64,000 nucleotides of DNA, from the NCBI RefSeq assembly GCF_015679265.1, contig NZ_CP064942.1, forward strand, positions 434,001 to 498,000. The letters run 5' to 3'. The position numbers and the translations under genes were made by a program. Source of the stretch: Pontivivens ytuae (lineage in GTDB: Bacteria; Pseudomonadota; Alphaproteobacteria; Rhodobacterales; Rhodobacteraceae). The notes beneath the pieces were generated by a model. It made no database searches. It saw only the letters and a program-made list of their open reading frames with translations, and was not told where the DNA came from. Within the stretch, counting starts at the first letter, position 1. Each line of letters opens with the position of its first letter. This document shows, one piece after another, positions 1-18,144 of this stretch.

Positions 1-594
1 CGCGTTCGGGCGGGACCATTCGCGTTCGTACTCGGCGCGGAGCTCCGGCGTCAGCCAGCCCATGTCCATGTGGGCGGAGAAGAGGCCGAGCAGTTTTTCG
101 AAGTTGTTCGCGCGCAGCGTGTCCTCCACGCCGTCCGCGCGCAGCCAGTCGATGTACTGGCTGGCGGCCGATTGCGGCCCTCCGGCGGCCAGCGCCTTCT
201 GGAACAGCACCGGATGCACGCCGTTCAGGATCACCAGCCGCCCGATCCGGTGCGGCAGCGCGAAGGCGGCGGCGTAGGCGACCGCAGCCCCCCAGTCGTG
301 GCCCACCAGCGTGACCCGCTCGCTTCCTCCCGCGTCCAGCACCGCCGCCACGTCCCCCAGCAAAGCAGGCATGGCGAGGCCCTTCAGGTCCGGCCACGGA
401 TTGCGGCTGATCCCGAAGCCGCGCTGGTCGAAGGCGAGGCAGCGAAACTCCGGCAGCGCCTTCATCACGCCGCACCAGCTCAGGCTGCTCTCCGGAAACC
501 CGTGCAGGAACAGGAGCGGCGGCGCATCCTCCGGGCCGGAGGTCAGCAGCCGGGTCGGTGCACCGCCGATATCGAGAAGCGTTTCGCGGATCAT
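1..594 (-). CDS. alpha/beta hydrolase, epoxide hydrolase / haloalkane dehalogenase-like (partial)
   Basis: Partial: the 3' end lies outside the window and about 198 codons are visible from ATG at 594. The fold signatures are an oxyanion HGFPES near residue 30, FDQRGFG, and a nucleophile elbow VGHDWGA in which the nucleophile is Asp, as in epoxide hydrolases and haloalkane/haloacetate dehalogenases rather than Ser esterases. The product should be cytoplasmic because no signal peptide is seen. It starts 4 nt after the stop of the OsmC-fusion gene, so the two are probably one operon. The substrate cannot be told from the sequence. The catalytic His lies in the missing part. Confidence 0.8.
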   Translation of the reverse strand, partial: MIRETLLDIGGAPTRLLTSGPEDAPPLLFLHGFPESSLSWCGVMKALPEFRCLAFDQRGFGISRNPWPDLKGLAMPALLGDVAAVLDAGGSERVTLVGHDWGAAVAYAAAFALPHRIGRLVILNGVHPVLFQKALAAGGPQSAASQYIDWLRADGVEDTLRANNFEKLLGLFSAHMDMGWLTPELRAEYEREWSRPNA

Positions 595-598
595 GGCG

Positions 599-1837
599 TC
601 AGCCTGCCGCGAGCGCCGGCTCCTCCGCAAGTTCGGTCGTCACGTGCGCCGTCCGCTCCAACGTCCGGTGGACGGGGCACTTGTTGGCGATCTCCAGGAG
701 CTTCGCCCGCTGCTCCGGCGTCAGCGCGCCCTGCAGGTGGACCACGCGGTGCAGGTGGTCGATCTGCGGCGTTGCTTCGGCCCGGTCCGCATCGGCGGCA
801 TGGATCTTGCCATGGGTCACGTCGACCGAGACGTGGTCGAGCGGCAGCTCCTTGTGCCGCGCATACATCCGGATCGTCATCGAGGTGCAGGCCGCCAGCG
901 CGCCGCCGAGGAGCTGGTAGGGCGTGAAGCCCAGATCGGTGCCGCCGAAGTCCACCGGCTCATCGGCGAGCACGTGGTGCTTCGGCCCGGCATTGATGTC
1001 GTGCAGGAAGCCGCGCGGGTCGCTCTCGCTCGCGCGCACGACCCCCTCGGGTACGTCGGCCGGAGCAGGAGGCGGCGTGAGGTCGATATAGCGGGCCGCC
1101 CAGCGTTCGATGACTCCGGCAGCATATTCCGCATCGGCGGCCCTGGTCAGCAGGTGGTCGGCGGTGTCGAGCGTTACGAAGCTCTTCGGGTGCCGCGCCG
1201 CACCCCAGATCTCGGTCGCGTTTTCGATGCCCACGGTCTGGTCCACCGGCGAGTGCAGGATGAGGAGCGGCTTGCGCATCGCGCCTACGGCCTCGCTGAG
1301 CTTCGCCCCCCGCACATCCTCGACGAAATCGCGGCGGATGGTGAAGGGACGCCCGCCGAGGCTCACCTCCGCCTCGCCCTCCTGCTCGATCCGCGCGAGG
1401 GCAGGGCCGAAATGGGCGGTAACGTGGAAGGGATCGGCCGGCGCGGCGATGGTCGCGACCGCCTTGACCGAGGCGACCTTCCCGGCGGCGGCGAGCACCG
1501 CGGCCCCGCCCAGCGAGTGGCCGATCATCAGGTCCGGCGCCATGCCGAGCCCGTCCAGATGGCCCGCCGCGCGCACCAGATCCTCGACATTCGAGGAGAA
1601 GTGCGTGTTCGCGAACTCTCCCTCCGAATGGCCGAGCCCGGTGAAATCGAAGCGCAGCACGGCGATCCCGGCCTGCGCGAGCCTCGCAGCGATCCTGCGC
1701 GCGGCGGGGATGTCCTTCGAGCAGGTGAAGCAATGCGCGAACAGCGCCGTGGCCAGATGCGGCCCGTCCGGCCGGTCGAGGCGGGCCGCGAGCATCTCGC
1801 CCGAATGGCCCTGGAAGCTCAGTTTCTCGCTGGTCAT
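599..1837 (-). CDS. bifunctional alpha/beta hydrolase / OsmC-family protein
   Basis: 412 residues with two domains. The N-terminal ~250 residues are a serine-type alpha/beta hydrolase with the nucleophile elbow GHSLGG. The C-terminal part is OsmC/Ohr-like, with the two characteristic redox cysteines in AACTSMTIRMYA and NKCPVHRTLE. OsmC domains reduce organic hydroperoxides; the fused hydrolase may handle lipid peroxides or esters (inference). I chose ATG 1837 because GGAGGAT lies just upstream; an in-frame ATG at 1906 adds 23 unlikely residues. This domain order is a known fusion. The following epoxide hydrolase-like gene is 4 nt downstream. Confidence 0.9.
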   Translation of the reverse strand: MTSEKLSFQGHSGEMLAARLDRPDGPHLATALFAHCFTCSKDIPAARRIAARLAQAGIAVLRFDFTGLGHSEGEFANTHFSSNVEDLVRAAGHLDGLGMAPDLMIGHSLGGAAVLAAAGKVASVKAVATIAAPADPFHVTAHFGPALARIEQEGEAEVSLGGRPFTIRRDFVEDVRGAKLSEAVGAMRKPLLILHSPVDQTVGIENATEIWGAARHPKSFVTLDTADHLLTRAADAEYAAGVIERWAARYIDLTPPPAPADVPEGVVRASESDPRGFLHDINAGPKHHVLADEPVDFGGTDLGFTPYQLLGGALAACTSMTIRMYARHKELPLDHVSVDVTHGKIHAADADRAEATPQIDHLHRVVHLQGALTPEQRAKLLEIANKCPVHRTLERTAHVTTELAEEPALAAG

Positions 1838-2047: not shown

Positions 2048-3490
2048 TTATCGGGCGAGCGCCAGCAGTCGGTCGAGGTCGAGATGGGCTTCCATGTGGT
2101 CGGCGACGCGGTCGAGCACGTCGTCCACGATGGTCTCGTGTTCCGCACACGCGCTTTGGACGCCGAGCCCGGCAAGCCACACCGCACGAAACGGGCCGGA
2201 GGAGAAGAGGCCGTGGAGGTGCGTTCCCGCGATCCGGCCGCTCGGCGACACCGCCCCTTCGGAGCCACCGGGCAATTGGAACAGGGGCCGCTCCGTATCG
2301 GGCCCCTTGATCCGGCCCATGTGGATCTCGTAGCCGCGGACGGGGACGCCCTCCGGCGTCGCGCCTTCGGTGGTCCCGAGGCGCTTCTCCGGCGCCATCA
2401 CCGTCGCCACGTCGAGCAGGCCGAGGCCCGCGGCCGCGCCCGGTCGCCCGTCCACACCGTCGGGATCGTCGATATGGTGGCCGAGCATCTGGAAGCCGCC
2501 GCAGATCCCCAGCACGTGCCCGCCGCGCCGGACATGACCCGCCAGATCCACGTCCCAACCCTGCTGCCGCAGAAACGCCAGATCGCCCAGCGTCGACTTC
2601 GTCCCCGGCAGGATCACCGCCGCGGCATCGCCGGGCAGCGGTGCGCCGGGGGGCACCATCACGATCTCCACCCCCGGCTCGGCGGCCAGCGGGTCGAGGT
2701 CGTCGAAATTGGCGATGCGCGAGAGCTGCGGCACCGCGATCTTCACCGGCCCGTCGCCGCCGCCCGCCAGCTCCAGCGCGTCCTCGGCCGGCAGGCGGCG
2801 CGCCTCGGCGAACCACGGGATGACGCCGAGGCAGGGCCAGCCGGTGTGGCGCTCGATCTCCGCCACGCCCTCGTCGAAGAGGGAAACGTCGCCGCGAAAC
2901 TTGTTGACCGCGCAGGCCACGACCTGCGCCCGGTCGCCCGCCTTCATCACCGCCGCATGGCCCGCGAGCTGTGCGATCACGCCGCCGCGGTCGATGTCAC
3001 CGACCAGCAGGACCGGCACGTCCGCCGCGCGCGCGAAGCCCATGTTCGCGATGTCGTTGGCGCGCAGATTGGTCTCCGCCGGGCTGCCCGCGCCTTCCAC
3101 GATGACCAGATCGGCCTCGGCACGTAGGCGGGAGAAGCTGTCGAGCACCGGCGCCATCAGCTCCGCCTTGCGCCGCCAGTAGGCCCGCGCCTCGGCCCGG
3201 AAGGCGACCTTGCCCTGCACCACGACCTGCGAGCCCGTCTCCGTCTCCGGCTTCAGGAGCACCGGGTTCATGTGGACCGAGGGCGAAACGCCGCACGCCG
3301 CGGCCTGCAACGCCTGCGCCCGCCCGATCTCGCCCCCCTCGGGCGTGACGGCGGCATTGTTGCTCATGTTCTGAGGCTTGAAGGGCCGGACGCTCAGCCC
3401 GCGCCGCACATAGGCCCGGCAGAGCCCGGCCACGAGCATCGACTTGCCCACGTTCGAGCCCGTCCCCTGCACCATCACGGCCTTGCCCAT
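2048..3490 (-). CDS. cobQ: cobyric acid synthase
   Basis: 480 residues, the usual length of CobQ. It amidates adenosylcobyrinate a,c-diamide at the b, d, e and g side chains with glutamine and ATP, late in cobalamin synthesis. The N-terminal ATP-binding dethiobiotin synthetase-like domain starts [17 protein letters not shown]. The C-terminal class I glutaminase domain has the nucleophile cysteine in [10 protein letters not shown] and a late His-containing GTHLHGLF segment. I chose ATG 3490 from the conserved N-terminus; an in-frame ATG at 3508 adds six residues. It is divergent from cobO with only 45 bp between starts, so the two share a control region. No B12 riboswitch fits in that gap. Confidence 0.95.
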
Positions 3491-3535
3491 CCCGCGCGCA
3501 CCTTCCATCTTCTTCCAAAGGCACAAGGAGGCCCC

Positions 3536-4138
3536 ATGAGCACGACGAATGACGCCCATCGCGAGGCGATGCAACAGGCCCAGACCGAACATCGGGAGAA
3601 GATGGCGCAGAAGACCCGCGCCGATCGCGGCCTCGTGCTCATCCACACCGGCGACGGCAAGGGCAAGAGCTCGTCCGCCTTCGGCGTCGTCGCCCGCGCG
3701 CTCGGCTGGGGGCAGAAGGTCGGGATCGTCCAGTTCATCAAGGGCAAGTGGAAGACCGGCGAGCGGGAGTTCTTCGCCCGCTTCCCCGAGATCGACTGGC
3801 ACACGATGGGCGACGGCTTCACCTGGGATACGCAGGACAAGGAGCAGGACACGCAGGCCGCGATGGAGGCCTTCGCCCAGGCCTGCGCGATGATGTCCTC
3901 GGGTGAGTACGACCTGATCGTGCTCGACGAGATCAACATCGCGCTGCGCTACGACTATCTCGACGCGGCCGCGGTGCGCGACGGGCTGGAAGGACGGGCG
4001 AAGCAGACCTCGGTCATCCTGACCGGGCGCGACGCGAAGCCCTCGCTGATGGAATATGCCGACCTCGTGACCGAGATGGTGGAGGTCAAGCACCCCTTCC
4101 AGGCGGGCATCAAGGCGCAGCGCGGCATCGACTATTGA
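3536..4138 (+). CDS. cobO: cob(I)yrinic acid a,c-diamide adenosyltransferase
   Basis: 200 residues, CobA/CobO type. It transfers the 5'-deoxyadenosyl group of ATP to the reduced cobalt of corrinoids, forming the coenzyme form. The nucleotide-binding loop GDGKGKSS is at residues 39-46, and the acidic [13 protein letters not shown] strand is present. ATG 3536 has a strong AAGGAGG four bases upstream. It is divergent from cobQ. The downstream membrane-protein gene starts inside its stop codon (TTGA overlap). Confidence 0.95.
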
Positions 4139-4713: not shown

Positions 4714-5763
4714 TCACGGCGTGCCGCGCGCCGGCATCATCGCGTCGGTGATCGTGCTGTCCTCGCCCGCGACCTCGGCCAGCGGACGGTAGCCGCGCTT
4801 GCCCCAGGTCCGCTCCAGCACCGTCGGGTGCACCCGCTGGTGCGGCCCCGGCTGCACGAGGCGGCGGGAGCGGTAGAGAAAGAGCTTGCCCGTCCCCGAC
4901 CAGTTGCCGAGCGAGGGAGCGAGCGGATCGCAGGGAAAGCGGCTGCGCCAGCCTTCGGGCAACGTCACGCCCACCCGCTCCACCCGTTCGAGCATCCAGA
5001 CCAGCGGGATGTTCGACAGCCCCCGCGCCCGCGGCTTGCGCCAGACCTGCCCGCCGATATCGCCGTGATTGCCCGCGAACCAGACCTGCTCCATCCGCCC
5101 CTCCCAACAGGGCGGGCGGTGCCAGAGCACGGGCGAGTATGCGACCCGCATCTCGTCGAGCGCGAGGGCCTGCGCGGCGAAGCGGACGGCGGGGCTGACA
5201 TTGTCGTCGTGGAAATCCGTGGCCATCGGGGCCAGCCGGTTGATCAGCGGATAGGGCAGGCCCAGCGCGCGGACGGTGTCCCAGACCCCCACCATCTCGA
5301 TCGGTACGTCGCGGTGGCAGAAGAGCTCGGAGAAGCGCCGCGCGTCGTCCGTCCGCCGCATCCGCTCGTAATAGCCGAAGGACCGGTCGACGCGCCGCGC
5401 TGTGGCGTGCTTCGCTTTCAGAAGCCCGATGCGCTCGATCCAGCCGGCGAGCGAGCGCACCGCGTAAGCGCCGCGCGAATAACCCAGAAGCACGATCCGG
5501 TCGCCGGGCACGTAGCGCGAGGCGATAGTGGCATAGGCCTCCGCAATCGCCTCGTTGACGCCGATCCCGGCGGCGGCGTGCAGCCATTTCGACCAGCCCC
5601 GCCCTTGGATGCCGGGATGGTAGCCGACCGATTGCCGCGCGGTCTGGCCCACCTCCTCCAGCAGCCGGAAGGCGAGGCCCGCATTGGTCTCGTGGCCTTC
5701 CGTGAGACGCGAGAACGTCCCGTCGATGATGAAGACATGGGTGCGGGGCGAACGCTGCGGCAT
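4714..5763 (-). CDS. DUF2235 (T6SS Tle1-like phospholipase domain) protein
   Basis: 349 residues. DUF2235 is an alpha/beta-hydrolase-like domain found in Tle1 phospholipase effectors and in stand-alone bacterial proteins. The N-terminus reads HVFIIDGTFSRL, the usual start of the domain. The nucleophile motif is GYSRGAYAVRSLAG (GxSxG), and WDTVRALG and WFAGNHGDIGG carry the probable catalytic Asp and His. There is no signal peptide, and no T6SS or immunity gene nearby, so an effector role is not supported. It converges with the cobO operon 6 bp away. Confidence 0.85.
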   Translation of the reverse strand: MPQRSPRTHVFIIDGTFSRLTEGHETNAGLAFRLLEEVGQTARQSVGYHPGIQGRGWSKWLHAAAGIGVNEAIAEAYATIASRYVPGDRIVLLGYSRGAYAVRSLAGWIERIGLLKAKHATARRVDRSFGYYERMRRTDDARRFSELFCHRDVPIEMVGVWDTVRALGLPYPLINRLAPMATDFHDDNVSPAVRFAAQALALDEMRVAYSPVLWHRPPCWEGRMEQVWFAGNHGDIGGQVWRKPRARGLSNIPLVWMLERVERVGVTLPEGWRSRFPCDPLAPSLGNWSGTGKLFLYRSRRLVQPGPHQRVHPTVLERTWGKRGYRPLAEVAGEDSTITDAMMPARGTP

Positions 5764-5866: not shown

Positions 5867-8800
5867 TCAGGGCGCGATATCGAGCGTGCCGCCCGGCTCG
5901 GCCGCGCGGGACTGGCAGAGGATCATCGCGGTCTCGCGCTCGGCTTTCGACAGGACGAAGTCGCGGTGGTCGACGGCACCGGCGGTGACGGTGCACTTGC
6001 AGACGCCGCAGAGGCCGTCGGCGCATTTCACGTCCACCTTGATCCCGGCGTCGATCAGAGCGTCGGAGGCGGTCTGTTCGGCCGCCACGGCGACCTCACG
6101 CCCATAGGGCAGGCGCAGGGTGAAGGGATGGTTCTCCCGCTCCGGCGCTTCGGGAACGGAGAAGTACTCGCGATGCAGCGCCTCCTCCAGCCAGCCGTTG
6201 GCCTCCGCCGCCTCCAGCACCGCGCTCATGTAGCGGTCGGGGCCGCAGGTGTAGAGATGCGCGCCCTCCGTGTGGGCGGTCAGCGCCGCGAGGTCGGCGC
6301 GGGTCTCGTCGGAGAACCAGTAGTGCACGCGGTCGGCCCAGGGCGCGGCGGCGAGGTCATCGAGATAGGCGGCGGTCGCTCGTGTCTTGCAGGAATAGTG
6401 CAGCTCGAACTCCCGCCCCAGCGCGTGCAGCCGGTGCGCCATGGCGATCATCGGGGTGACGCCGATGCCGCCGGCCATCAGCAGCGTCTTCGGCGCATCC
6501 TCCACCAGCGGGAAGTGGTTGATGGGGCGGGAGATGAAGACCCGCCGCCCTTCGGAGAAGATCCGGTGCATGAGGGCGGAACCGCCGCGGCCCGCATCCT
6601 CGCGCAGCACGCCGATCTGGTAGATGTCGCGCCGCGCCGGATCGCCGGACATGGAGTACTGGCGCAGGAACTCCGGCGCCACCACCACGTCGAGATGCGC
6701 GCCAGCCTGCCATTCCGGCAGGTCGCCGCCATCCGCAGCGCGGAACTCGTACTTGGTGATGTCGCCGGTCATGTGCTCGACCTTCGAGACCACGACCGGC
6801 AGCACCGGCGCCTCCGCCCCGAAATCGCGCAGCTTGTGCGACGGGTCCTCGCCGCGCGCGATCCGCCGCTTGTACTCACCGGCAGAGATCAGCGCCTTGT
6901 AAGCCGCGATCCCCGCCTCCCGGTCCATCGGATCGGGGAAGGGCCAGGGGTGCGGGGCGAGCGGCGCGGGATAGACGGCAAGCGTCTGATCCTCGTGGCG
7001 CAGGTCGAGATCAGGGGAGATGTCGCGCCGGTTCACCGGCTGCACGGCGGGGCGGTAGGGGCCGTCGCTCTCCATCTCCAGGTCCCACCACCACTTCTTG
7101 GCCGGGTTCATGTTGCCCCGGCCAAGGCGGTCGTCGAGGGCCGCCAGGTGCTTCGCCGCCCCCGGCACGTGCATCGCGGCCCAGCGGAAGGGGGCCTCGG
7201 CGAACAGGCCTTCGAGGTTCCACGGACAGGTCTTCATGCAGCGGCCGCACATGGCGCCGCCCGCCGTGCCGATGCGGTAGGTGGTGCATTTCTGGCTGTC
7301 GGACTTCCAGATCTCGTAGCCGTTGAACATCCGCTTCGGCCCGGCGGTGATCGCGCCCGAGGGGCATTCGCGGGCGCACTTGTTGCAGGCCTCGCAAAAG
7401 CGTTGCAGGCCGAAGTCGATGGGCCTGTCATGCGCCATCGGCATGTTGGTCGTGACCGCCCCGGATTTCAGCCGCGGGCCGAGGAAGGGGTTGAGGATGA
7501 CCTCTCCGATCCGGGAAACCTCGCCGAGGCCGGAGAGCAGCAGCAGCGGCGGCTGCAGCACCTCGCCGTCGATGACGGAGTGGACGCGCGCCTCGTAGCC
7601 CATCTCGCGGATCGCCTCCGCGATGACCCCACCGAGCAGCGAGAAGCGCAGGTAGGCGCGCATGGATTGGGCGCAGGCGATCCAGTCGTCGCCGCTCGCA
7701 CCCTCCATCGTCTCGTGCCCCTGGTCGATGATCATGGAAACGGCGTTGGCATGGTAGGCGGGCAGCGGGTCGCCCTTCGCGTCGTGGGAGTAGTAGGCCC
7801 AGTCCGGGCAGCGGCTGATCCCCACCGCGTCGACGCCGAGGAAATAGCTCGCCGCCTTGATCCAGTCGGCGTTGCGTTGCGCTTCGTCGGCCTGCGGGTC
7901 CTTCGCCTGCGCCGGGCCGTCCTGCAGCAGCGTCAGCGCGCCCAGCGCCCGGCGGAACGCGAAGGCGGAGGCGGACTTGCGCACGTAGTTGCCGTTCTTC
8001 GCGTTCTCCTGCGGGCCGCGGCCCATGTCGCCGAAGAGCGCGCGCGAGAACATGTCGGCGCGCTTCGGCACGCGGGGGACGCGCGGCTCGTCGATATAGG
8101 TGGTGGGCGTGTCGACGCGCTTCAGCGTCTCGAAGGGATGCGCACCGTTGGCGTAGTTGCGCTTGGCGAAGGGGTCGGCATTGAGGGCCGTCTTCGCCTG
8201 CGCGCCGAGATACCATTGGACACCCTTGCCGCCGGGATCATCCGCGAGCGGCTGGTCGGGCGCGACCACCAGCGTCGTGGTCACAACGCCAATGCCGAAG
8301 CGCTCCCCGAACCACGGATTGACGAGGCGGCCGCCCTCGACCCGCGCGAGGCCTGCTGCCACGGCGAACCGGCCCAGATGCACGTCGGACGCGGTGCCCT
8401 GGTGCGCCCGTGCCTCGTCGCCCAGCAGGCGGATGTAGCTCGATAGGACCGAGCCGGTCTCGCCCGCCCGCAGCGCCGCGCGCGCAGCCTGCGCCCCCTC
8501 CAGCATCCACTCGCCCGGCGCATCGCGCGGATCTCGCGGCCAGGCATAGAGGTAAACGAGCGCGTGGGTGTGGTGGCGACAGTCGCCGGGCGGGACGGCG
8601 GCGCTTTCCTTCAGCTCCGCCATGATGACGTCGATCCCGGCCGAGAGGGTGGAGGTCTGGCGGGTCTGGAGCTCCTGCGCCAGTGCCGCGACCCCGGGAT
8701 TGTGGAGCGGCGCATCGCGCCACATCGCGGGCCGAATCGCGCAGGTCCCCGCAAGGCTCGCATCGCAGTAATAGGTGAAGCTCTTCAGGTGCCGCGCCCG

Positions 8801-9031
8801 CTCCTCCAGATCCTCGGGGATCACCGCCCGCTCCCGCTTCACCAGCCCGTCGCGGGTGGCGTCCAGCATCGCCTGGTATCGGGCGAGCGCCCGGCCGAGC
8901 GGCGTGTCGGGCACCGCCACCGGCGCATCCTCCGGCACGCGCGAGAGGTCCGGCATCGGCCCGCGCCGCAACGTCTCCGCCGGATAGGGGCCGAGGTGGA
9001 AGGGCCGGTCGGCATAGGAGCGCAGGCGCAT
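5867..9031 (-). CDS. self-sufficient cytoplasmic reductive dehalogenase (RdhA + ferredoxin reductase fusion)
   Basis: 1054 residues. Residues ~1-540 are a reductive dehalogenase corrinoid region. Two [4Fe-4S] motifs follow: CEACNKCARECPSG at 546-558 and CGRCMKTCPWN at 595-605. Residues ~740-950 are a ferredoxin-reductase-like flavin/NAD(P)H module (RQYSMSGDP, GGIGVTPM, CGPDRYM). Residues ~970-1050 are a plant-type [2Fe-2S] domain (CADGLCGVCKC plus a later Cys in ILCQSRA). This order matches the catabolic, oxygen-tolerant dehalogenases of the NpRdhA/BhbA type, which use cobalamin and NAD(P)H to remove halogen from haloaromatics. There is no Tat signal and no RdhB anchor gene, so it should be cytoplasmic. 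ATG 9031 is one base past the MarR stop. The halogenated substrate is unknown. Confidence 0.9.
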   Translation of the reverse strand: MRLRSYADRPFHLGPYPAETLRRGPMPDLSRVPEDAPVAVPDTPLGRALARYQAMLDATRDGLVKRERAVIPEDLEERARHLKSFTYYCDASLAGTCAIRPAMWRDAPLHNPGVAALAQELQTRQTSTLSAGIDVIMAELKESAAVPPGDCRHHTHALVYLYAWPRDPRDAPGEWMLEGAQAARAALRAGETGSVLSSYIRLLGDEARAHQGTASDVHLGRFAVAAGLARVEGGRLVNPWFGERFGIGVVTTTLVVAPDQPLADDPGGKGVQWYLGAQAKTALNADPFAKRNYANGAHPFETLKRVDTPTTYIDEPRVPRVPKRADMFSRALFGDMGRGPQENAKNGNYVRKSASAFAFRRALGALTLLQDGPAQAKDPQADEAQRNADWIKAASYFLGVDAVGISRCPDWAYYSHDAKGDPLPAYHANAVSMIIDQGHETMEGASGDDWIACAQSMRAYLRFSLLGGVIAEAIREMGYEARVHSVIDGEVLQPPLLLLSGLGEVSRIGEVILNPFLGPRLKSGAVTTNMPMAHDRPIDFGLQRFCEACNKCARECPSGAITAGPKRMFNGYEIWKSDSQKCTTYRIGTAGGAMCGRCMKTCPWNLEGLFAEAPFRWAAMHVPGAAKHLAALDDRLGRGNMNPAKKWWWDLEMESDGPYRPAVQPVNRRDISPDLDLRHEDQTLAVYPAPLAPHPWPFPDPMDREAGIAAYKALISAGEYKRRIARGEDPSHKLRDFGAEAPVLPVVVSKVEHMTGDITKYEFRAADGGDLPEWQAGAHLDVVVAPEFLRQYSMSGDPARRDIYQIGVLREDAGRGGSALMHRIFSEGRRVFISRPINHFPLVEDAPKTLLMAGGIGVTPMIAMAHRLHALGREFELHYSCKTRATAAYLDDLAAAPWADRVHYWFSDETRADLAALTAHTEGAHLYTCGPDRYMSAVLEAAEANGWLEEALHREYFSVPEAPERENHPFTLRLPYGREVAVAAEQTASDALIDAGIKVDVKCADGLCGVCKCTVTAGAVDHRDFVLSKAERETAMILCQSRAAEPGGTLDIAP

Positions 9032-9032
9032 G

Positions 9033-9476
9033 TCAGAGACCTTTCAGCGGGCCAGGCCGCGCGGCGTTAAGCTCGGTGAGCAGCGCCAGCAGCCGGTCGC
9101 GGGAACAGGGATCGAGGTCGCGGGTCATGTCCTCGGCATTCGCACGGGCGGCGGCCACGGCCTCGTCGAGCACCGCACGACCAGCCGCCGTAATCGCCAC
9201 GTCCCGCGCCCGCCCGTCGCCGTTGGAGGCGGTGCGAACGACACGCCCCTGCCCTTCCAGCACGTTCAACGCGCGGGAGATCGCGGCGCGGTCCACCCCA
9301 ATGAAATCGCTCAAGCCAGACGGCTGCCCGATCCCCTCCTGCCCGACGCCGAGCAGGACGCACCATTGCAGGCGGGTGAGCTCCAACGGCTCCAGCCGCG
9401 CCTCGAATCCCCGCTCGACGGCCCGGGCGAGGCGGGAGAGCTGGTAGCCGAGCGAGGCGTGCAGGTCATAGGACAT
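9033..9476 (-). CDS. MarR-family transcriptional regulator
   Basis: 147 residues from ATG 9476; a TTG at 9491 is an alternative start adding five residues. A winged-helix DNA-binding region spans the middle: LTRLQWCVLLGVGQEG, DRAAISRALNVLEGQG as the recognition helix, then a basic DGRARDVAIT wing. It is transcribed just ahead of the reductive dehalogenase and stops one base before it, so it very likely controls that gene. Nested inverted repeats overlap its start. MarR proteins often sense aromatic acids, which suits a haloaromatic inducer (inference). It contains two Cys residues. Confidence 0.9.
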   Translation of the reverse strand: MSYDLHASLGYQLSRLARAVERGFEARLEPLELTRLQWCVLLGVGQEGIGQPSGLSDFIGVDRAAISRALNVLEGQGRVVRTASNGDGRARDVAITAAGRAVLDEAVAAARANAEDMTRDLDPCSRDRLLALLTELNAARPGPLKGL

Positions 9477-9477
9477 G

Positions 9478-9514
9478 ATTGACAGGATCAATCAAACTGA
9501 TTGCCCCTGTCAAT
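9478..9514. promoter_or_regulatory. nested inverted repeats, candidate MarR operator
   Basis: ATTGACAGG (9478-9486) pairs with CCTGTCAAT (9506-9514). Inside it, CAATCA (9489-9494) pairs with TGATTG (9498-9503) around AAC. Both are perfect and share nearly the same centre. They lie immediately upstream of or over the MarR start, where an autorepressor would bind. Confidence 0.7.
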
Positions 9515-9947
9515 CAGTTTGCAGGCTCTCCACCGCCGCCCGGAACGGCTCGGGCAGCTCCACCGGTCGCCGCGTGGTGCTGTCGACATAGACGTGGGTG
9601 AACCCGGCCTCCGCCGACGCGCTGTCGGCCGCACCGTCGAAGAGCCCGACCTCGTAACGCACCGAGCTGCGCCCGACCTTGCCAACCCGCAGGCCGCCGG
9701 TCACCGGCGTCGGAAAACCGAGGCTCGCGTGGAAGATGCAGTCCGACTGCACCACGAGGCCCACCACCGGCCCATGCGGGATCTCCAACGTCCCCGTCCC
9801 CACGATCCAGCCGTTCACGACGCTGTCCACGTACTCGTAGAACACCGCGTTGTTCATATGCGCGTAGACATCATTGTCGCGCCACCGGGTCGCCATCGTC
9901 ACGAAATGACGGTAAGCCGCGCGGGTGGCGGGAGCGGGTCGGGTCAT
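9510..9947 (-). CDS. acyl-CoA thioesterase, hotdog fold (4HBT family)
   Basis: 145 residues. The 4-hydroxybenzoyl-CoA thioesterase family signature is RWRDNDVYAHMNNAVFYEYVD, with the active-site Asp in DND and HMNN after it. It would hydrolyse an acyl- or aroyl-CoA thioester. It lies directly upstream of the MarR-dehalogenase pair on the same strand, 33 bp from the MarR ATG. The family name comes from dehalogenation pathways, but hotdog thioesterases are common and non-specific, so a link to dehalogenation is only an inference. It is divergent from a HAD phosphatase gene. Confidence 0.85.
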   Translation of the reverse strand: MTRPAPATRAAYRHFVTMATRWRDNDVYAHMNNAVFYEYVDSVVNGWIVGTGTLEIPHGPVVGLVVQSDCIFHASLGFPTPVTGGLRVGKVGRSSVRYEVGLFDGAADSASAEAGFTHVYVDSTTRRPVELPEPFRAAVESLQTD

Positions 9948-9978
9948 GGCGCGTCTCCGGATGGCAATGGAGGCCAGC

Positions 9979-10653
9979 ATGGTCAAAGCCGTGATCTTCG
10001 ACAAGGACGGCACGCTGTTCGACTTCACCGCGACGTGGGGGCCGTGGACGGCGGACCTGCTGCGCGACCTCGCCGATGATGCGGCGCACGCCGACCGGCT
10101 GGCGCGGGCCGTGGGCTTCGACCTTTCCACCTGCCGTTTCGACCCCGCGAGCCCGGTGATCGCCGGCACGCCGGGCGACTCGGCCCGGGCGCTGGAGGCC
10201 GCCCTGCCCGGCATGACGCTCGACGCGATCGTGCGGATCCTGATCGAGCGCAGCCGCGACGTGGTCCCCGCCCCCGCTGTCCCGCTCGCCCCCCTGCTCA
10301 GCGAGCTGACGGACCGGGGCCTCGCGCTCGCCGTCGTGACCAACGACGCCGAAGGACCGGCGCTCGAACAGCTCGACGGTCACGCCCACCACTTCGCCTT
10401 CATCGCCGGATGCGACAGCGGGCACGGGGCGAAACCCGATCCCGACCCGCTGCTCGCCGCCGCCCGCGCGCTGGGCCACGCGGCGGAGGATTGCATCATG
10501 GTCGGCGACAGCCTGCACGATATTCGCGCGGCCCATGCCGCCGGGATGCGCGCCCTCGGTGTGCTCACCGGTCCCGCGACCGAACTGCCGGGGGCCGAGG
10601 CGGTGCTGCCCGATATCGGCCACCTGCCCCGCTGGCTCGACGCGACGACATAG
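9979..10653 (+). CDS. HAD-superfamily phosphatase (phosphoglycolate phosphatase-like)
   Basis: 224 residues. HAD motif I is FDKDGTLFDF (both Asp present), motif II is VVTNDAEG, and motif III/IV are KPDPDPLL and MVGDSLHDI. This is a Mg2+-dependent phosphatase of the Gph type, acting on a small phosphorylated metabolite. I chose ATG 9979 because GGAGG lies five bases upstream; ATGs at 9961 and 9967 are alternatives. The family is named for haloacid dehalogenases, but the motifs fit a phosphatase and not a dehalogenase. Confidence 0.85.
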   Translation: MVKAVIFDKDGTLFDFTATWGPWTADLLRDLADDAAHADRLARAVGFDLSTCRFDPASPVIAGTPGDSARALEAALPGMTLDAIVRILIERSRDVVPAPAVPLAPLLSELTDRGLALAVVTNDAEGPALEQLDGHAHHFAFIAGCDSGHGAKPDPDPLLAAARALGHAAEDCIMVGDSLHDIRAAHAAGMRALGVLTGPATELPGAEAVLPDIGHLPRWLDATT

Positions 10654-10717
10654 GCCCCGAAAACGACACCGATCCGTCGCGACCGTCACAGAATGCCGCG
10701 GCCGAGCGGCCTTTCCT

Positions 10718-10736
10718 GTCTCCATGCGGAGGAGAC
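10718..10736 (+). promoter_or_regulatory. hairpin covering the Shine-Dalgarno of the MttB-family gene
   Basis: GTCTCC (10718-10723) can pair with GGAGAC (10731-10736) across a 7-nt loop. The second arm is the ribosome binding site of the gene starting at 10741. It could modulate translation, but the stem is short. Confidence 0.3.
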
Positions 10737-10740
10737 CGAC

Positions 10741-12291
10741 ATGACGATACAGACCCGCCGGCGGGGCGGCGGACGCGCGGGCAACACCCGGCGCAGCACG
10801 GCCAAAGCCATCGAACAGATGCCCTGGAGCCCGCCGGTCAATGTCGACCGGCCCACCGAACCCCTCTCCGACGAGGGGGTGGCCGCCATCCACGACACCG
10901 CGATGCGCATTCTCGAGGAGATCGGGATCGAGTTCCTCAACGGCGAGGCGCGCGACTACCTGCGCGAGGCCGGCTGCACCGTCGAGGGCGAGAACGTGCG
11001 CATGGACCGCGATTGGGTCATGGCCATGGTGGGCAAGGCACCCGACACCGTCACGATCACCCCGCGCAACCCGGACCACGCGATCACGATCGGGGGCCGG
11101 AACATGGCCTTCGTCAACGTCTCCTCCCCGCCCAACGTGATGGATCTCGACCGCGGACGGCGCGTGGGAGATTTCGAGAGCTTCAAGGACCTCCTGAAAT
11201 TCACCCAGTATTTCAACTGCATCCACGTGGCGGGCGGCTATCCGGTCGAGCCCGTGGACATCCATGCGAGCATCCGCCACCTCGACTGCCTCTACGAGAA
11301 GCTGACGCTGACCGACAAGGTCTGCCACGCCTATTCGCTCGGCCCCGAACGGGTCGAGGACGTGCTGGAGATGGCGCGGATCGCCGCCGGGCTCACCCAT
11401 GAGGAGTTCGACGCGGCCCCGCGGCTCTACACCAACATCAACTCCTCGAGCCCCCTGAAGCACGACTGGCCGATGCTCGACGGCGCGATGCGCTTCGTGA
11501 AGCGCGGCCAGCCGGTGATCGTGACGCCGTTCACGCTCGCGGGCGCCATGGCACCGGTGACGATGGCCGGCGCGGTGGCGCAGTCGGTGGCGGAGGCGCT
11601 GGCGGCGATCGCCCTCTTCCAGCACATCCGCCCGGGCGTGGGCTGCGTCATGGGCTCCTTCACCTCGAACGTGGACATGAAGTCCGGCGCGCCCGCGTTC
11701 GGCACGCCCGAGTACGTACGCGCGACGCAGATGACCGGTCAGATGGCGCGCTTCTACGGGCTGCCCTTGCGCGCCTCGAACGCCTGCGCCTCGAACGCGC
11801 CGGACGGACAGGCGATGTGGGAAAGCTCCAACTCGCTCTGGGCCGCGGTCAATTCGGGCGTGAATCTCGTCTATCACGCGGCTGGCTGGCTGGAGGGCGG
11901 GCTCATCGCCTCCTACGAGAAGTTCGTGATGGATTGCGAACTGCTCCAGCAGATCCAGCGCTACATGGACCCCGCGATCACCGCGACCGATGCGGGGAGC
12001 CTCGCCTTCGACGCGATCCGCGAGGTCGGACCGACCGGCCACTTCTTCGGCACGCAGCACACGCAGGACCGCTACCAGACCGCGTTCTACGCCCCCTTCC
12101 TGAGCGACTGGCGCAACTACGAGGCGTGGCAGGAGGCGGGCAGCACCTGGACGGCGGATCGGGCGAACGCGACGTGGAAAGCGATCCTCGCCGAGTTCGA
12201 GCCGCCTGCGATCGACCCGGCCATCCGCGACGAACTCAAGGACTTCGTCGCCCGGCGCAAGGCGGAGGGCGGCGCGCCCACTGACTTCTGA
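10741..12291 (+). CDS. trimethylamine methyltransferase (MttB) superfamily protein, non-pyrrolysine
   Basis: 516 residues from ATG 10741 with GGAGGAG upstream. It is homologous across its length to the MttB family of corrinoid-dependent methyltransferases: typical DEGVAAIHDTAMRILEEIG near the start, PFTLAGAMAPVT in the middle and the C-terminal FVARRKAEGG. No in-frame TAG is present, so it is the non-pyrrolysine class. Members of that class use quaternary amines such as glycine betaine (MtgB) or related compounds. No cognate corrinoid protein or methyltransferase partner is visible nearby. Quaternary-amine demethylation fits the dimethylglycine dehydrogenase-like gene at 14230, but that pairing is inference. 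Confidence 0.85.
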   Translation: MTIQTRRRGGGRAGNTRRSTAKAIEQMPWSPPVNVDRPTEPLSDEGVAAIHDTAMRILEEIGIEFLNGEARDYLREAGCTVEGENVRMDRDWVMAMVGKAPDTVTITPRNPDHAITIGGRNMAFVNVSSPPNVMDLDRGRRVGDFESFKDLLKFTQYFNCIHVAGGYPVEPVDIHASIRHLDCLYEKLTLTDKVCHAYSLGPERVEDVLEMARIAAGLTHEEFDAAPRLYTNINSSSPLKHDWPMLDGAMRFVKRGQPVIVTPFTLAGAMAPVTMAGAVAQSVAEALAAIALFQHIRPGVGCVMGSFTSNVDMKSGAPAFGTPEYVRATQMTGQMARFYGLPLRASNACASNAPDGQAMWESSNSLWAAVNSGVNLVYHAAGWLEGGLIASYEKFVMDCELLQQIQRYMDPAITATDAGSLAFDAIREVGPTGHFFGTQHTQDRYQTAFYAPFLSDWRNYEAWQEAGSTWTADRANATWKAILAEFEPPAIDPAIRDELKDFVARRKAEGGAPTDF

Positions 12292-14033: not shown

Positions 14034-14229
14034 TACGGCACTCCTGTTGTCAGATTTACCTTACACGCAAAATGCGAAGATGACTCTTCACGTTTTCGCC
14101 CTGATTGATTTGTGATCGTCCGTGACGGGAAATCGCCGATGACGCAAACGGACCTCGTTTTGTCTCATTCCGTCTTGGCAGGGCGGTGCCGGTCCCCTTG
14201 TCATGGGACCCAAGCAAGGAGACGAGCCC

Positions 14230-16647
14230 ATGACCCAGCACTACCGCGCCATCGTGATCGGGGGCGGCGTCGTCGGCGCCTCGGTCCTCTATCACCTGAC
14301 CAAGAAGGGCTGGACCGATGTCGCCCTGCTGGAGCGCGACGTGCTGACCTGCGGTTCCTCGTGGCATGCGGCGGGCGGCTTTCACACGCTCAACGGCGAT
14401 CCGAACGTGGCGAAGCTCCAGCAATACACCGTCGATCTCTACAAGGAGATCGAGGAGATCTCGGGCCTCTCCTGCGGCGTGCACCTCACCGGCGGCGTGC
14501 AGCTCGCCAAGACCAAGGAGCGGATGGAGAGCCTCTACATGGCGCAGGCGCGCGGGCGCTACATGGGCATGGAGCTGGAGATCGTGACGCCGGAATGGAC
14601 CAAGGAGCGCTTCCCGATCCTCAACGAGAAGGAGTTCCTGGGCGGGCTGTGGGATCCGATCGAAGGGCATCTCGACCCCTCCGGCACCACCCATGCCTAC
14701 GCGAAATCCGCCCGGATCGCGGGCGCCAAGGTGCACGAGAAGACCAAGGTCGAGGACCTGCGGCGGGACGAGACCGGCACCTGGCGGCTCACCACCTCGC
14801 AAGGCGAGTTCACCTGCGACCACGTGGTCAATGCCGGCGGCCTTTGGGCGCGCGAGGTCGGCCGCATGGTGGGGCTGGAGCTGCCTGTGCTCGCCATGGA
14901 GCACCACTACTTGCTGACCGAGGAAGTGCCCGAGGTCACCGCCTTCAACAAAGAGAGCGGGCAGGAGCTGATCCACATCATCGATTTCGAGGGCGAGATC
15001 TACACAAGGCAGGAACGCGACGGCGTCCTCCTCGGCACCTATGAGCGCGCCGCGACCCCGTGGATGCCCAAGGAAACGCCGTGGAACTTCGGCTCCGAGC
15101 TGCTGGAGCCCGATTTCGACCGGATCGCGCCGTCGCTGGAGGTCGCCTTCCAGCATTTCCCGGCGCTGGAGACTGTCGGCATCCGCCAGGCGATCAACGG
15201 CCCCTTCACCTTCGCCCCCGACGGCAACCCACTGGTCGGGCCGGTGCGCGGGCTGCCCGGCTTCTGGTGCGCCTGTGCCGTGATGGCGGGCTTCTCCCAG
15301 GGCGGTGGCGTCGGGCTGGCGCTCTCGAACTGGATGGTGGACGGCGATCCGGGCTTCGACGTCTGGGGCATGGACGTGGCGCGCTACGGCGACTGGGCGA
15401 CGCTCAGCTACACCAACGAGAAGGTGCGGGAGAACTACTCGCGCCGCTTCCGCATCCGCTTCCCCAACGAGGAGCTGCCAGCCGCGCGGCCCCTGCGCAC
15501 CGGGGCGCTGCATGACCGGCACATCGCCCTCGGCGCGCAGATGGGCGACAACTGGGGGCTGGAGACGCCGCTCTGGTACGCGCCCGAGGGGGTCGAGGAG
15601 ACCTTCTCTTGGCGCCGCTCCACCGACCACCAGCACGTGGCGCGCGAGGTCGCGGCGGTGCGTGAGGGCGTGGGGATCATCGACATCACCGGCTTCTCGA
15701 AGTTCGCGGTGCATGGGCCCGGGGCCGAAGGCTTCCTCGACAAGGTGCTCGCCTGCAAGCTGCCCGCCGAGGGCCGCATGACCCTGGCCCCCATGCTCAA
15801 CGAGAACGGCAAGCTGATCGGCGATCTCTCGGTCGCGAATCTGGGGCGCTACTACTGGATGGCGGGGTCGGGCATCGCGCAGGAATATTACCTGCGCCAT
15901 TTTGAGGCGCACAGGCCCGAAGGCGTGACCATCGACGCCAAGGGCCCCGCCATCTGCGGCATCTCGATCGCCGGACCGAAGGCGCGCGACTTGTTGGCGC
16001 GTGTCGCGGGCGAGGATGTGAGCCACGAGGCGTTCCGCTTCATGGCCGCGCGCGAGATGCTGGTCGGCCACGTGATGTGCACCGTCGGCCGCGTCTCCTA
16101 TACCGGCGATCTGGGCTACGAGATCTGGATGGAGACGGAATTTGCCCGCTATGTCTGGGACTTGCTGATGGAAGAGGGCGCGGATCTCGGCATCGCGCCC
16201 GTCGGCATGCGGGCGCTCAACTCCCTGCGGCTGGAGAAGAACTGGTCCTCCTGGGCGCGCGAGTACCGCCCGATTTACGGTGCGCTGGAGGCGGGGCTCG
16301 ACCGCTTCGTCGCCTATGACAAGCCCGCCGACTTCATCGGCAAAGCGGCCGCCCGGGCGGAGCGGGAGAGCGGCGGCGCCCTGCGGCTGCTCACCTTCCG
16401 GGTCGATGCGATCGACAGCGATCCGATCGGGGACGAGCCGATCTGGTGGAATGGCGAGGTGAAGGGCTGGATCACCTCCGGCGGCTACGCCCACAACCAG
16501 GGCACCTCGATGGCGCAGGGCTATGTACCCAAGGAGATCGCGGGCGAGGCCGAAGGATGGGAGGTCGAGGTGCTGGGCGAGCGCCTGCCGATGCGGCCGC
16601 AGTTCGCGCCGGCTTTCGACGCCAATGCGAGCCGGATGCGCAGCTAG
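14230..16647 (+). CDS. dimethylglycine/sarcosine dehydrogenase-like FAD and GcvT-domain oxidoreductase
   Basis: 805 residues from ATG 14230 with AAGGAGA upstream. The N-terminal DAO domain has the dinucleotide motif VIGGGVVGASV (residues 8-18). His46 in SSWHAAGG corresponds to the position that carries covalent FAD in dimethylglycine and sarcosine dehydrogenases (family knowledge). The C-terminal half is a GcvT folate-binding domain, with GYEIWME and the typical MRALNSLRLEKNWSSWAREY. It should oxidatively demethylate an N-methylated glycine and pass formaldehyde to tetrahydrofolate. The exact substrate is uncertain. Confidence 0.85.
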   Translation: MTQHYRAIVIGGGVVGASVLYHLTKKGWTDVALLERDVLTCGSSWHAAGGFHTLNGDPNVAKLQQYTVDLYKEIEEISGLSCGVHLTGGVQLAKTKERMESLYMAQARGRYMGMELEIVTPEWTKERFPILNEKEFLGGLWDPIEGHLDPSGTTHAYAKSARIAGAKVHEKTKVEDLRRDETGTWRLTTSQGEFTCDHVVNAGGLWAREVGRMVGLELPVLAMEHHYLLTEEVPEVTAFNKESGQELIHIIDFEGEIYTRQERDGVLLGTYERAATPWMPKETPWNFGSELLEPDFDRIAPSLEVAFQHFPALETVGIRQAINGPFTFAPDGNPLVGPVRGLPGFWCACAVMAGFSQGGGVGLALSNWMVDGDPGFDVWGMDVARYGDWATLSYTNEKVRENYSRRFRIRFPNEELPAARPLRTGALHDRHIALGAQMGDNWGLETPLWYAPEGVEETFSWRRSTDHQHVAREVAAVREGVGIIDITGFSKFAVHGPGAEGFLDKVLACKLPAEGRMTLAPMLNENGKLIGDLSVANLGRYYWMAGSGIAQEYYLRHFEAHRPEGVTIDAKGPAICGISIAGPKARDLLARVAGEDVSHEAFRFMAAREMLVGHVMCTVGRVSYTGDLGYEIWMETEFARYVWDLLMEEGADLGIAPVGMRALNSLRLEKNWSSWAREYRPIYGALEAGLDRFVAYDKPADFIGKAAARAERESGGALRLLTFRVDAIDSDPIGDEPIWWNGEVKGWITSGGYAHNQGTSMAQGYVPKEIAGEAEGWEVEVLGERLPMRPQFAPAFDANASRMRS

Positions 16648-16654
16648 GAACCTG

Positions 16655-16709
16655 CGCCTCCGGCGGGGATATTTCGAGCAAGAAGAAGGCGTTACGTCTT
16701 CTTGAAATA
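16655..16709. terminator. motif-linked bidirectional terminator
   Basis: GCGCCTCCGGCGGGGATATT (16655-16674) runs into an inverted repeat: TATTTC (16670-16675) with GAAATA (16704-16709), and AAGAAGA (16680-16686) with TCTTCTT (16697-16703). It lies between convergent genes and includes the phhA stop. Confidence 0.75.
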
Positions 16710-17555
16710 CGTCATGTCGCCGCGGTGAAAGACCCGGTCAGTGTCCAGAACGGCGTCGGGGGCGATGTCCTCGGCACCCTTCAGGCGATCGTAGAGGGCG
16801 GAGAAATCACCGTAGCACTCCGACAGTAGCGATTTGAAATCGTTAATGACGAAGTAGGTCTTCTGGTAGTCGTCGATCTCGTATTCGGTGCGCATCACCC
16901 GTTCCAGATCGAAGCCGATCCTGTTGGAAGATGTATCTTCGAGGCTGAAGCGGATCTCCCCGGTGGAGCTCAGGATCCCCGCGCCGAAGATGCGCAGGCC
17001 GTCCGCGTGGCGCATCAGGCCGAATTCGATGGTGTACCAGTAAAGCCTTGCCAAGTTGTGAAGCTGGCCGCGCTCCATCGCAGCCTGCCCGCCCTTGCCG
17101 TAGGCTTCCATGAAATCGGCATAGGTCGGATCGGCGAGCAGCGGCACGTGGCCGAAGACGTCGTGGAAGATGTCGGGCTCCTCCAGGTACTCCATCTCGG
17201 CCTCGGAGCGGATGAAGGCGCCGGCCGGGAAACGGCGGTTGGCGAGGTGGTCGAAGAACACCTCGTCGGGCACGAGGTCGGCCACCGGCACCACGGACCA
17301 GCCAGTGAGCGGGCGGAGTTTCTCGGAGAGCTTCTCCATGTCCGGCACGCCGCCGCCGGAGAGGTCAAGCGTCTGAACGGCCTCGATGAATTCGGGGGCG
17401 GCGCGGCCGGGCAAGAGCTCCGTCACCGCCTTGGCGAGGCGGTTCCAGCGGTCGTGTTCCTCGGCACTGTAGGTGTGCCACTGCTGGTCGATCGTGTAGT
17501 CTTCGCGCTTCGGCGCGGTACGGTAGCGATTACGGGCGTCGGTTTCGTCAAGCAT
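16692..17555 (-). CDS. phhA: phenylalanine-4-hydroxylase
   Basis: 287 residues, the usual bacterial length. It converts phenylalanine to tyrosine with O2 and a tetrahydropterin on a mononuclear iron. The iron ligands are seen in PDIFHDVFGHVPLL (two His) and YTIEFGL (Glu). No pterin-4a-carbinolamine dehydratase (phhB) is next to it. The gene is divergent from an Lrp-type regulator 112 bp away, and inverted repeats lie in that gap, so regulation by the neighbour is likely. Confidence 0.95.
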   Translation of the reverse strand: MLDETDARNRYRTAPKREDYTIDQQWHTYSAEEHDRWNRLAKAVTELLPGRAAPEFIEAVQTLDLSGGGVPDMEKLSEKLRPLTGWSVVPVADLVPDEVFFDHLANRRFPAGAFIRSEAEMEYLEEPDIFHDVFGHVPLLADPTYADFMEAYGKGGQAAMERGQLHNLARLYWYTIEFGLMRHADGLRIFGAGILSSTGEIRFSLEDTSSNRIGFDLERVMRTEYEIDDYQKTYFVINDFKSLLSECYGDFSALYDRLKGAEDIAPDAVLDTDRVFHRGDMTYFKKT

Positions 17556-17601
17556 GGGTTACTCCTCTCGGATCATGGGAGAAGACTGCCCCGAAAGGCC
17601 G

Positions 17602-17639
17602 GACGAATCGTTTCGTCGTTACTTGGATTTCGTTGAAAT
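17602..17639. promoter_or_regulatory. two inverted repeats between phhA and the Lrp-type regulator
   Basis: GACGAA (17602-17607) pairs with TTCGTC (17612-17617), and ATTTC (17627-17631) pairs with GAAAT (17635-17639). The dyad centres are about 23-24 bp apart, roughly two helical turns, in the divergent control region. This suits an Lrp-type oligomer. Confidence 0.5.
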
Positions 17640-17667
17640 TCGGTAAAGCTGGCGGCACTCTTGGGCC

Positions 17668-18144
17668 ATGATGAAACAGTTGTCTCTTTCGCTGACCGAG
17701 CTCGACCGCCTGATCCTGCAGGCCCTGCAGCGCGACGCGACGCTGTCGGTGCGCGGTCTCGCCGAGAAGCTCGACCAGTCGCAATCGACGATCTGGCGGC
17801 GTCTGACGAGCCTGGAGAAGGCGGGCGCGATCCGGGCGCGGGTCGCCCTGCTCGACCCCGCGCGAGTCGGCGTGCCGGTCTGCGTTTTCGTACAGATCAA
17901 CCTCACCGGGCACGGACCGGAGGTGCGCAAGTCCTTTGAATCGCTGGTGGAACGCACGCCGGAGATCCTCGACTGCTATGCCGTGACCGGCACCTTCGAC
18001 TACACGCTGATCGTCCGCTGCGGCTCGGTCGAGGATTTCGAGGAGCTGCTGATGCACCGCATACTCAACCATGACAGCGTGGCCAACGCTTCAAGCCAGT
18101 TCGCACTGCGCCAGATCAAGAGCGAGACCGCGCTGCCGATCTGA
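17668..18144 (+). CDS. Lrp/AsnC-family transcriptional regulator
   Basis: 158 residues. The N-terminal helix-turn-helix reads LDRLILQALQRDATLSVRGLAEKL then QSTIWRRLTSLEKAGAI. The C-terminal RAM (amino-acid binding) domain follows, with YAVTGTFDYTLIVRC. Start at ATG 17668 (a second ATG follows directly). It is divergent from phhA and probably activates it in response to phenylalanine or tyrosine (inference from position). Confidence 0.9.
   Translation: MMKQLSLSLTELDRLILQALQRDATLSVRGLAEKLDQSQSTIWRRLTSLEKAGAIRARVALLDPARVGVPVCVFVQINLTGHGPEVRKSFESLVERTPEILDCYAVTGTFDYTLIVRCGSVEDFEELLMHRILNHDSVANASSQFALRQIKSETALPI

Follow-up and report, generated by a model that had tools for sequence, protein, structure and literature searches.

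The rdhA locus

We examined a 64,000-nucleotide stretch of the Pontivivens ytuae genome (NCBI RefSeq contig NZ_CP064942.1, positions 434,001 to 498,000; hereafter the window, to which positions without a contig label refer), in which the gene rdhA is predicted to encode a self-sufficient catabolic reductive dehalogenase, preceded by a MarR-family regulator gene (marR) and a putative operator (Table 1). The rdhA open reading frame (ORF) comprises 1054 codons, running from an ATG at 9031-9029 to a stop at 5869-5867, and is adjoined by marR and by a gene for a Tle1-like hydrolase. Its extent agrees with that given in a preliminary description of this DNA and its strand is minus. The protein is the single match above the cut-off of the RDH family in its own 4.2-Mb genome, and inner stops were absent from the rdhA matches listed in a survey of 296 genomes of the same family. 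Judged from its sequence, rdhA is a real gene encoding a full-length catabolic RdhA fused to a phthalate dioxygenase reductase (PDOR) module.

Table 1. Features of the rdhA locus in the window, with the domains of the encoded protein
Feature	Position	Strand	Description and evidence
rdhA	5867..9031	-	Predicted self-sufficient catabolic reductive dehalogenase, 1054 amino acids; sequence, Pfam, NCBIfam, PDB, alignment, model
Vestigial corrinoid-type domain of rdhA product	residues ~70-270		
Catalytic corrinoid domain of rdhA product	residues ~375-540		
2x[4Fe-4S] of rdhA product	residues 546-602		
PDOR-like flavin/NAD(P)H/[2Fe-2S] module of rdhA product	residues ~744-1048		
marR	9033..9476	-	MarR-family regulator directly upstream of rdhA; Pfam MarR_2, E 2e-8
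Putative operator A	9493..9521	.	29-bp inverted repeat, 11-bp arms, 7-bp spacer; core 19-mer 9498-9516
Putative operator B	9476..9494	.	19-bp palindrome repeated at 22 bp from A; TGATTGATCCTGTCAATCA
4HBT-type thioesterase	9510..10343	-	Upstream neighbour, true start inside ORF; Pfam 4HBT_2, E 6.1e-12
Tle1-like hydrolase	4714..5763	-	Downstream neighbour; Pfam PF09994, E 7.7e-60

The domain make-up is supported by several databases. The RDH model of NCBIfam (TIGR02486) matches the window protein at 180.8 bits against a cut-off of 160.35 (E 5.6e-53), and Pfam Fer4_7 and Fer4_16 (residues 546-605) and Fer2 (976-1043) all match above cut-off; flavin-reductase families of NCBIfam match below their own cut-offs. 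The best PDB sequence match is NpRdhA (E 5.6e-154), covering window residues 1-101 and 149-724, while residues ~744-1048 match the reductase modules of CYP116B cytochromes P450 and phthalate dioxygenase reductase (PDB 2pia, 6kbh and 6laa). The Pfam, NCBIfam and PDB matches bear out the earlier domain list of an RdhA region, two [4Fe-4S] motifs, a flavin reductase and a [2Fe-2S] domain. The same description had proposed that the protein lacks both a twin-arginine translocation (Tat) signal and an RdhB partner. The N-terminus (MRLRSYADRPFHLGPYP), read by eye without a signal predictor, has no Tat-like start, and no RdhB-like gene was seen among the neighbours of rdhA, to which the search for RdhB was confined, so that both statements hold at the level of the N-terminus and the locus.

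These features bear on two other identities for the protein. A respiratory reductive dehalogenase serving as terminal oxidoreductase would be compatible with the TIGR02486 match, as this family models reductive dehalogenases in general, but the N-terminus and locus without Tat signal and RdhB led us to reject it, and the fusion to an NAD(P)H reductase, with a second domain that is vestigial, makes it very improbable. An epoxyqueuosine reductase (QueG)-like protein or other class-III corrinoid reductase that is not a dehalogenase is hardly credible. The QueG model TIGR00276 does match weakly, and sub-cut-off TIGR02486 matches occur in 11 of 14 control genomes; however, the QueG score of 25.6 bits falls far below the cut-off of 200, for which reason a QueG identity was rejected, the RDH cut-off is exceeded by the window protein and reached in none of the 14 control genomes, and the halophenol-binding Lys, Arg and Ser and the Tyr are invariant. 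Another match in the own genome, at G000:C1:1772711-1773055 and with only 35.8 bits, is presumably the QueG.

Predicted fold and conserved residues

An AlphaFold2 model of the window protein, computed from an alignment with 50 of 120 listed homologues that form a rather uniform set (65-97% identity), had a predicted local distance difference test (pLDDT) score of 78.4 and a predicted template modeling (pTM) score of 0.77. In a Foldseek comparison with the PDB, NpRdhA chains occupied ranks 1-14 (best E 1.6e-56; template modeling score by target 0.85-0.87), and the CYP116B structures 6kbh and 6laa and phthalate dioxygenase reductase 2pia followed below rank 14 for the reductase part. Residues 70-270 align to the catalytic domain at 375-540 with an hhalign probability of 99.5% (E 6.7e-23), against 0.3% for a control comparison of the N-terminal profile with the reductase module, and the N-terminal copy carries Ala and Gly where the catalytic domain has Y460 and K522. 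As read from this profile alignment, the N-terminal part is a decayed, vestigial copy of the corrinoid domain. Such a vestigial duplication is named as a trait setting catabolic RdhAs apart (PMC10463259).

Conservation was assessed in an alignment of 224 rows, in which NpRdhA and the window protein were joined by the 120 listed homologues and by 102 copies taken from loci. Four of these copies (L102-L105) are truncated or partial and were left out of the marR-linkage and lineage counts given below. Residues F291, S422, Y426, K488 and R552 of NpRdhA are conserved in all 223 other rows and M423 in 221 of them; the equivalents in the window protein are F328, S456, Y460, K522, R586 and M457, respectively, and the conservation of the catalytic Tyr, Lys and Arg called for in the preliminary description is therefore found throughout. 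These residues of NpRdhA have been linked to substrate binding and proton transfer (PMC7565698). The eight cysteines of the [4Fe-4S] motifs (C546/549/552/556 and C582/595/598/602) and the four of the [2Fe-2S] domain (C1003/1008/1011/1039) are present in all 219 full-length rows, that of the window included.

Relation to characterised dehalogenases

A close correspondence in architecture is with BhbA from plasmid pBHB of Comamonas sp. 7D-2 (WP_015585978), which matches the window protein from end to end (549/1070 identical, 51%), has the same domain order and possesses identical catalytic residues. BhbA differs in having Ser rather than Cys at NpRdhA position 419 and in lying on a plasmid stretch with protocatechuate 4,5-dioxygenase genes and insertion sequence (IS) elements, where a same-strand upstream marR, present in the window, was not found. 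NpRdhA of Nitratireductor pacificus (PDB 4RAS, 6ZXU) resembles the window protein in the fold of the RdhA part, the corrinoid and iron-sulphur architecture and the catalytic residues, but comprises 704 amino acids without the fused reductase module. NpRdhA has been described as naturally truncated and BhbA as full-length and self-sufficient (PMC10463259). The earlier assignment to a self-sufficient catabolic RdhA of the BhbA type is thus upheld by domain order and full-length identity, whereas the domain order ascribed to NpRdhA in the same assignment is not, and an NpRdhA-type truncated enzyme is ruled out by the reductase module of the window protein.

JtRdhA of Jhaorihella thermophila (WP_104007082) is likewise described as a self-sufficient RdhA-PDOR fusion with the equivalents of Y426, K488 and R552 (PMC10463259), a likeness taken from the published description. 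This enzyme uses NADPH, aerobically too, on ortho-bromo- and ortho-iodophenols, and enables Escherichia coli W to grow on 3-bromo-4-hydroxyphenylacetate (PMC10463259). By analogy with these relatives, the window protein would tolerate oxygen, use NAD(P)H and act as a dehalogenase, and its probable reaction is the aerobic removal of bromine or iodine from phenols. A Roseobacter enzyme, the debrominase Ros_A3X954 of Roseobacter sp. MED193, is a Tat-less reductive dehalogenase acting on 2,6-dibromophenol, and differs in architecture from the window protein with its [4Fe-4S] motifs at residues 283-345 (PMC13101508); MED193 additionally carries a full-length relative of the window protein.

Distribution and lineages of the family

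Matches to the window protein at E <= 1e-10 were found among 3494 of 7997 scored database proteins, the nearest of the matches listed being 97%, then 80% and 79% identical. The surveyed genomes of the window's own family were at least 90% complete and included its own genome; 122 of the 296 carried rdhA at E <= 1e-200, four of them matching over part of the length only. A smaller sample gave matches at E <= 1e-100 in 17 of 61 genomes (own included), of which 14, at E = 0, are matched from end to end and the other three carry truncated-type or partial matches. Eighty loci were retained, with record titles mostly from Rhodobacterales, some from Hyphomicrobiales and one from Halieaceae, the nearest being Monaibacterium marinum (79%). 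The window protein is thus not rare and belongs, as an unexceptional member, to a large family for which JtRdhA serves as characterised model; the earlier suggestion that, characterised members being few, it widens the set is, on these counts and with JtRdhA of like architecture already studied, overstated.

Position 419 of NpRdhA lines the pocket for a second halogen, and the A419M variant favours mono-halogenated substrates (PMC7565698). The equivalent residue is Cys453 in the window protein, and 118 distinct rows hold Cys (34), Val (80), Ser (3) or Ala (1) at this position. On a FastTree phylogeny built without column 419 the distribution of Cys and Val requires two changes, against a mean of 29.4 for shuffled residues, and all 34 Cys rows lie inside a starred set of 40 rows that includes two with Val. 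In a 104-row tree one change is enough, on a branch with a support of only 14. As these phylogenies place it, position 419 is Cys or Val in two deep lineages.

Linkage to marR and a putative operator

The stop codon of marR is separated from the rdhA ATG by 1 bp, and its own ATG lies at 9476-9474 (the mechanical ORF begins at the TTG at 9491). A profile seeded from the window's own MarR, which may miss other MarR types, identified an upstream same-strand marR in 28 of 126 rdhA loci, corresponding to 23/37 of the Cys type, 4/85 of the Val type, 1/3 of the Ser type and 0/1 of the Ala type. These loci include copies (118 are distinct, and the copies among marR loci are L004/L089, L015/L120 and L046/L133); in distinct sequences the linkage is found at 20/34 Cys-type and 4/80 Val-type loci. 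Linkage to marR follows lineage. Residue 419 and marR linkage were considered as independent evidence and rejected as such, with one independent pair on the starred branches and two overall. Control of rdh genes by a MarR-type regulator is known from RdhR of Dehalococcoides.

Upstream of marR, putative operator A (CAAACTGATTGACAGGGGCAATCAGTTTG on the minus strand) spans the end of the thioesterase ORF, including its final codons, and the space before marR, and the last base of putative operator B is the A of the marR ATG. A consensus, TGATTGACAnTGTCAATCA, with 18 fixed bases was scored in 124 loci over as much as 1 kb of the sequence preceding rdhA; the remaining two of the 126 had too little upstream sequence and were dropped. 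Of the 27 loci that have a same-strand marR, 20, the window among them, score at least 14/18; none of the other 97 does, including two with marR on the opposite strand. The positive loci comprise 18/22 of the Cys type, 1/1 of the Ser type and 1/4 of the Val type, and all 20 sites fall close to the start of marR, at a distance of 475-518 bp from the rdhA match that follows, no selection having been made for position. In 50 first-order Markov resamples per locus, the observed score was never reached for 18 of the 20 positives and was reached once each for L098 and L064. A second site with at least 12 matches lies 21-22 bp away in the window, L018, L049, L061 and L077. With up to three mismatches the consensus occurs in the 4.2-Mb genome only at sites A and B, each read on both strands, and the backwards consensus finds no site there; arms of at least 10 bp arose in 3 of 500 mononucleotide shuffles of the window region.

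From this arrangement we infer that marR and rdhA constitute a co-transcribed, autoregulated unit directed at ortho-bromo- or ortho-iodophenols, in which MarR, as a dedicated repressor, would bind the palindrome. No such operator or regulator, nor the pocket-residue split, appears in the consulted parts of PMC10463259, PMC13101508 and PMC7565698. A more tentative extension, which we regard as quite doubtful, is that the Cys-type lineage represents a functional subtype, in which a marR-rdhA module with a MarR dedicated to sensing halophenols through the sometimes tandem start-codon palindrome would be combined with a Cys-for-Val pocket fitting a second bulky halogen, giving a specialist for dibromo- or diiodophenols, with the Val type preferring mono-halogenated substrates.

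Genomic neighbourhood

The thioesterase and Tle1-like hydrolase genes keep their place in two congeneric genomes without rdhA at this site. The order thioesterase, marR, rdhA, Tle1-like hydrolase is found in the own genome and in one congener (G003); in a second (G001) the Tle1-like gene comes directly after the thioesterase, marR and rdhA both being absent there, and a third (G002) has a diverged marR (33%) alone between the two, along with an rdhA of 61% identity elsewhere in its genome beside a divergently placed marR (38%). This comparison indicates that the neighbours are fixed while rdhA, mostly together with marR, is present or absent between them. The Tle1-like gene (PF09994) is a fixed neighbour of the site in all four congeneric genomes, and its product is not thought to take part in rdhA function.

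Gene families present in at least five of 86 loci, judged by eye from first residues, offered no clue to the substrate; they include families that we take to be DUF3572-like and PleD-like. Within 1.2 kb of rdhA, 19 of the 86 loci have a HAD phosphatase and 8 an MttB-like gene, which we read as shared chromosomal position because the HAD and thioesterase genes persist without rdhA. In the window an MttB-family methyltransferase (10693-12291) and a DAO/GCV_T-type oxidoreductase (14203-16647) lie near rdhA, in an order kept in Monaibacterium (L004). The HAD phosphatase match of the nearest relative (G003:C4:67340-67999, L139) has one in-frame TAG. Further along, at 16692-18144, a phenylalanine 4-hydroxylase-like ORF adjoins a divergent Lrp/AsnC-like regulator ORF, both named by eye from their translations.

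The own genome (G000) contains, above the respective family cut-offs, pobA (G000:C1:1497632-1498777), pcaH (3617504-3618172; a weaker adjacent match is presumably pcaG), hmgA (928009-929280) and two genes of the CobN/magnesium-chelatase family, one of which may be a bacteriochlorophyll chelatase. The window holds a cobO-type gene within 3272-4138 and a cobQ-type gene within 2048-4093 (mechanical ORF ends). From the cob, chelatase, pobA, pcaH and hmgA genes together, the cell can plausibly make corrinoid and degrade products of the 4-hydroxybenzoate type. The cobQ- and cobO-type cobalamin genes (2048-4138) lie ~1.7 kb downstream of rdhA, and cobQ is syntenic in L004; their nearness to rdhA is taken as chance.

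Proposed mechanism and alternatives

The window protein is very probably a catabolic reductive dehalogenase like BhbA and JtRdhA that works in the cytosol and is driven by NAD(P)H, its gene being co-transcribed with an autoregulating marR whose product is released by a phenol or halophenol. We infer its cofactors, electron path and substrate class as follows. Hydride from NAD(P)H would pass to a flavin (flavin mononucleotide by analogy) in the C-terminal module, and electrons would then move singly through the [2Fe-2S] and the two [4Fe-4S] clusters to base-off cob(II)alamin. A halogen ortho to the phenolic hydroxyl would be placed on the cobalt, the phenolate being held by K522 and R586, with Y460 donating a proton and bromide or iodide being released with the dehalogenated phenol, which ordinary aromatic pathways could then degrade. 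Transcription of rdhA would proceed together with the upstream marR, whose product would bind the tandem palindrome at its own start codon and repress both genes until a phenol or halophenol releases it.

Several observations weigh against this interpretation. On the side of the enzyme, the pocket of the window protein departs from that of NpRdhA at six residues (F290 to Met, K307 to Ala, F310 to Tyr, P311 to Val, A419 to Cys and N452 to Val), so the substrate range need not equal that of NpRdhA, and JtRdhA does not turn over chlorophenols (PMC10463259). The structural model is weak (pLDDT < 50) at residues 440-447, 499-515 and 568-578, which include parts of the active site. On the side of regulation, the consensus was drawn after viewing the window, L031, L066 and L077, and without these four the palindrome is found in 16/23 loci; the loci are also related, and removal of one of each of three near-identical pairs among the 27 leaves 18/24. 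Four Cys-type marR loci score below 14 (L040, 13; L004 and its copy L089, 12; L033, 11). When perfect palindromes were scanned for, only 4 of 28 loci showed a related repeat, and a promoter scan found no sigma-70-like promoter. Arms of at least 7 bp arose in 94 of 300 mononucleotide shuffles, and with chance arms so frequent site B alone would mean little. With respect to the pathway, pobA lies ~1.06 Mb and pcaH 3.2 Mb along the contig from rdhA, and no aromatic catabolism gene was found adjoining it among the neighbours searched.

This last point, together with the presence or absence of rdhA between close relatives, would also suit an enzyme of like architecture with another job, namely the detoxification of environmental halophenols or halotyrosine derivatives, in which the phenol is merely released and does not support growth. 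We consider detoxification possible but unlikely, since enzymes that initiate the breakdown of 4-hydroxybenzoate and homogentisate are encoded in the own genome and since JtRdhA supports growth of E. coli W on a brominated hydroxyphenylacetate (PMC10463259).

Implications

Catabolic dehalogenases like BhbA and JtRdhA are an established enzyme type, to which the window protein adds one more member. The division of the family by a single pocket residue, at NpRdhA position 419, and the pairing of a catabolic dehalogenase with a putative operator and regulator are of wider interest, as the latter could reveal which natural halophenol induces rdhA. With rdhA carried by 122 of the 296 sampled family genomes, its true substrate may bear on the cycling of bromine and iodine.

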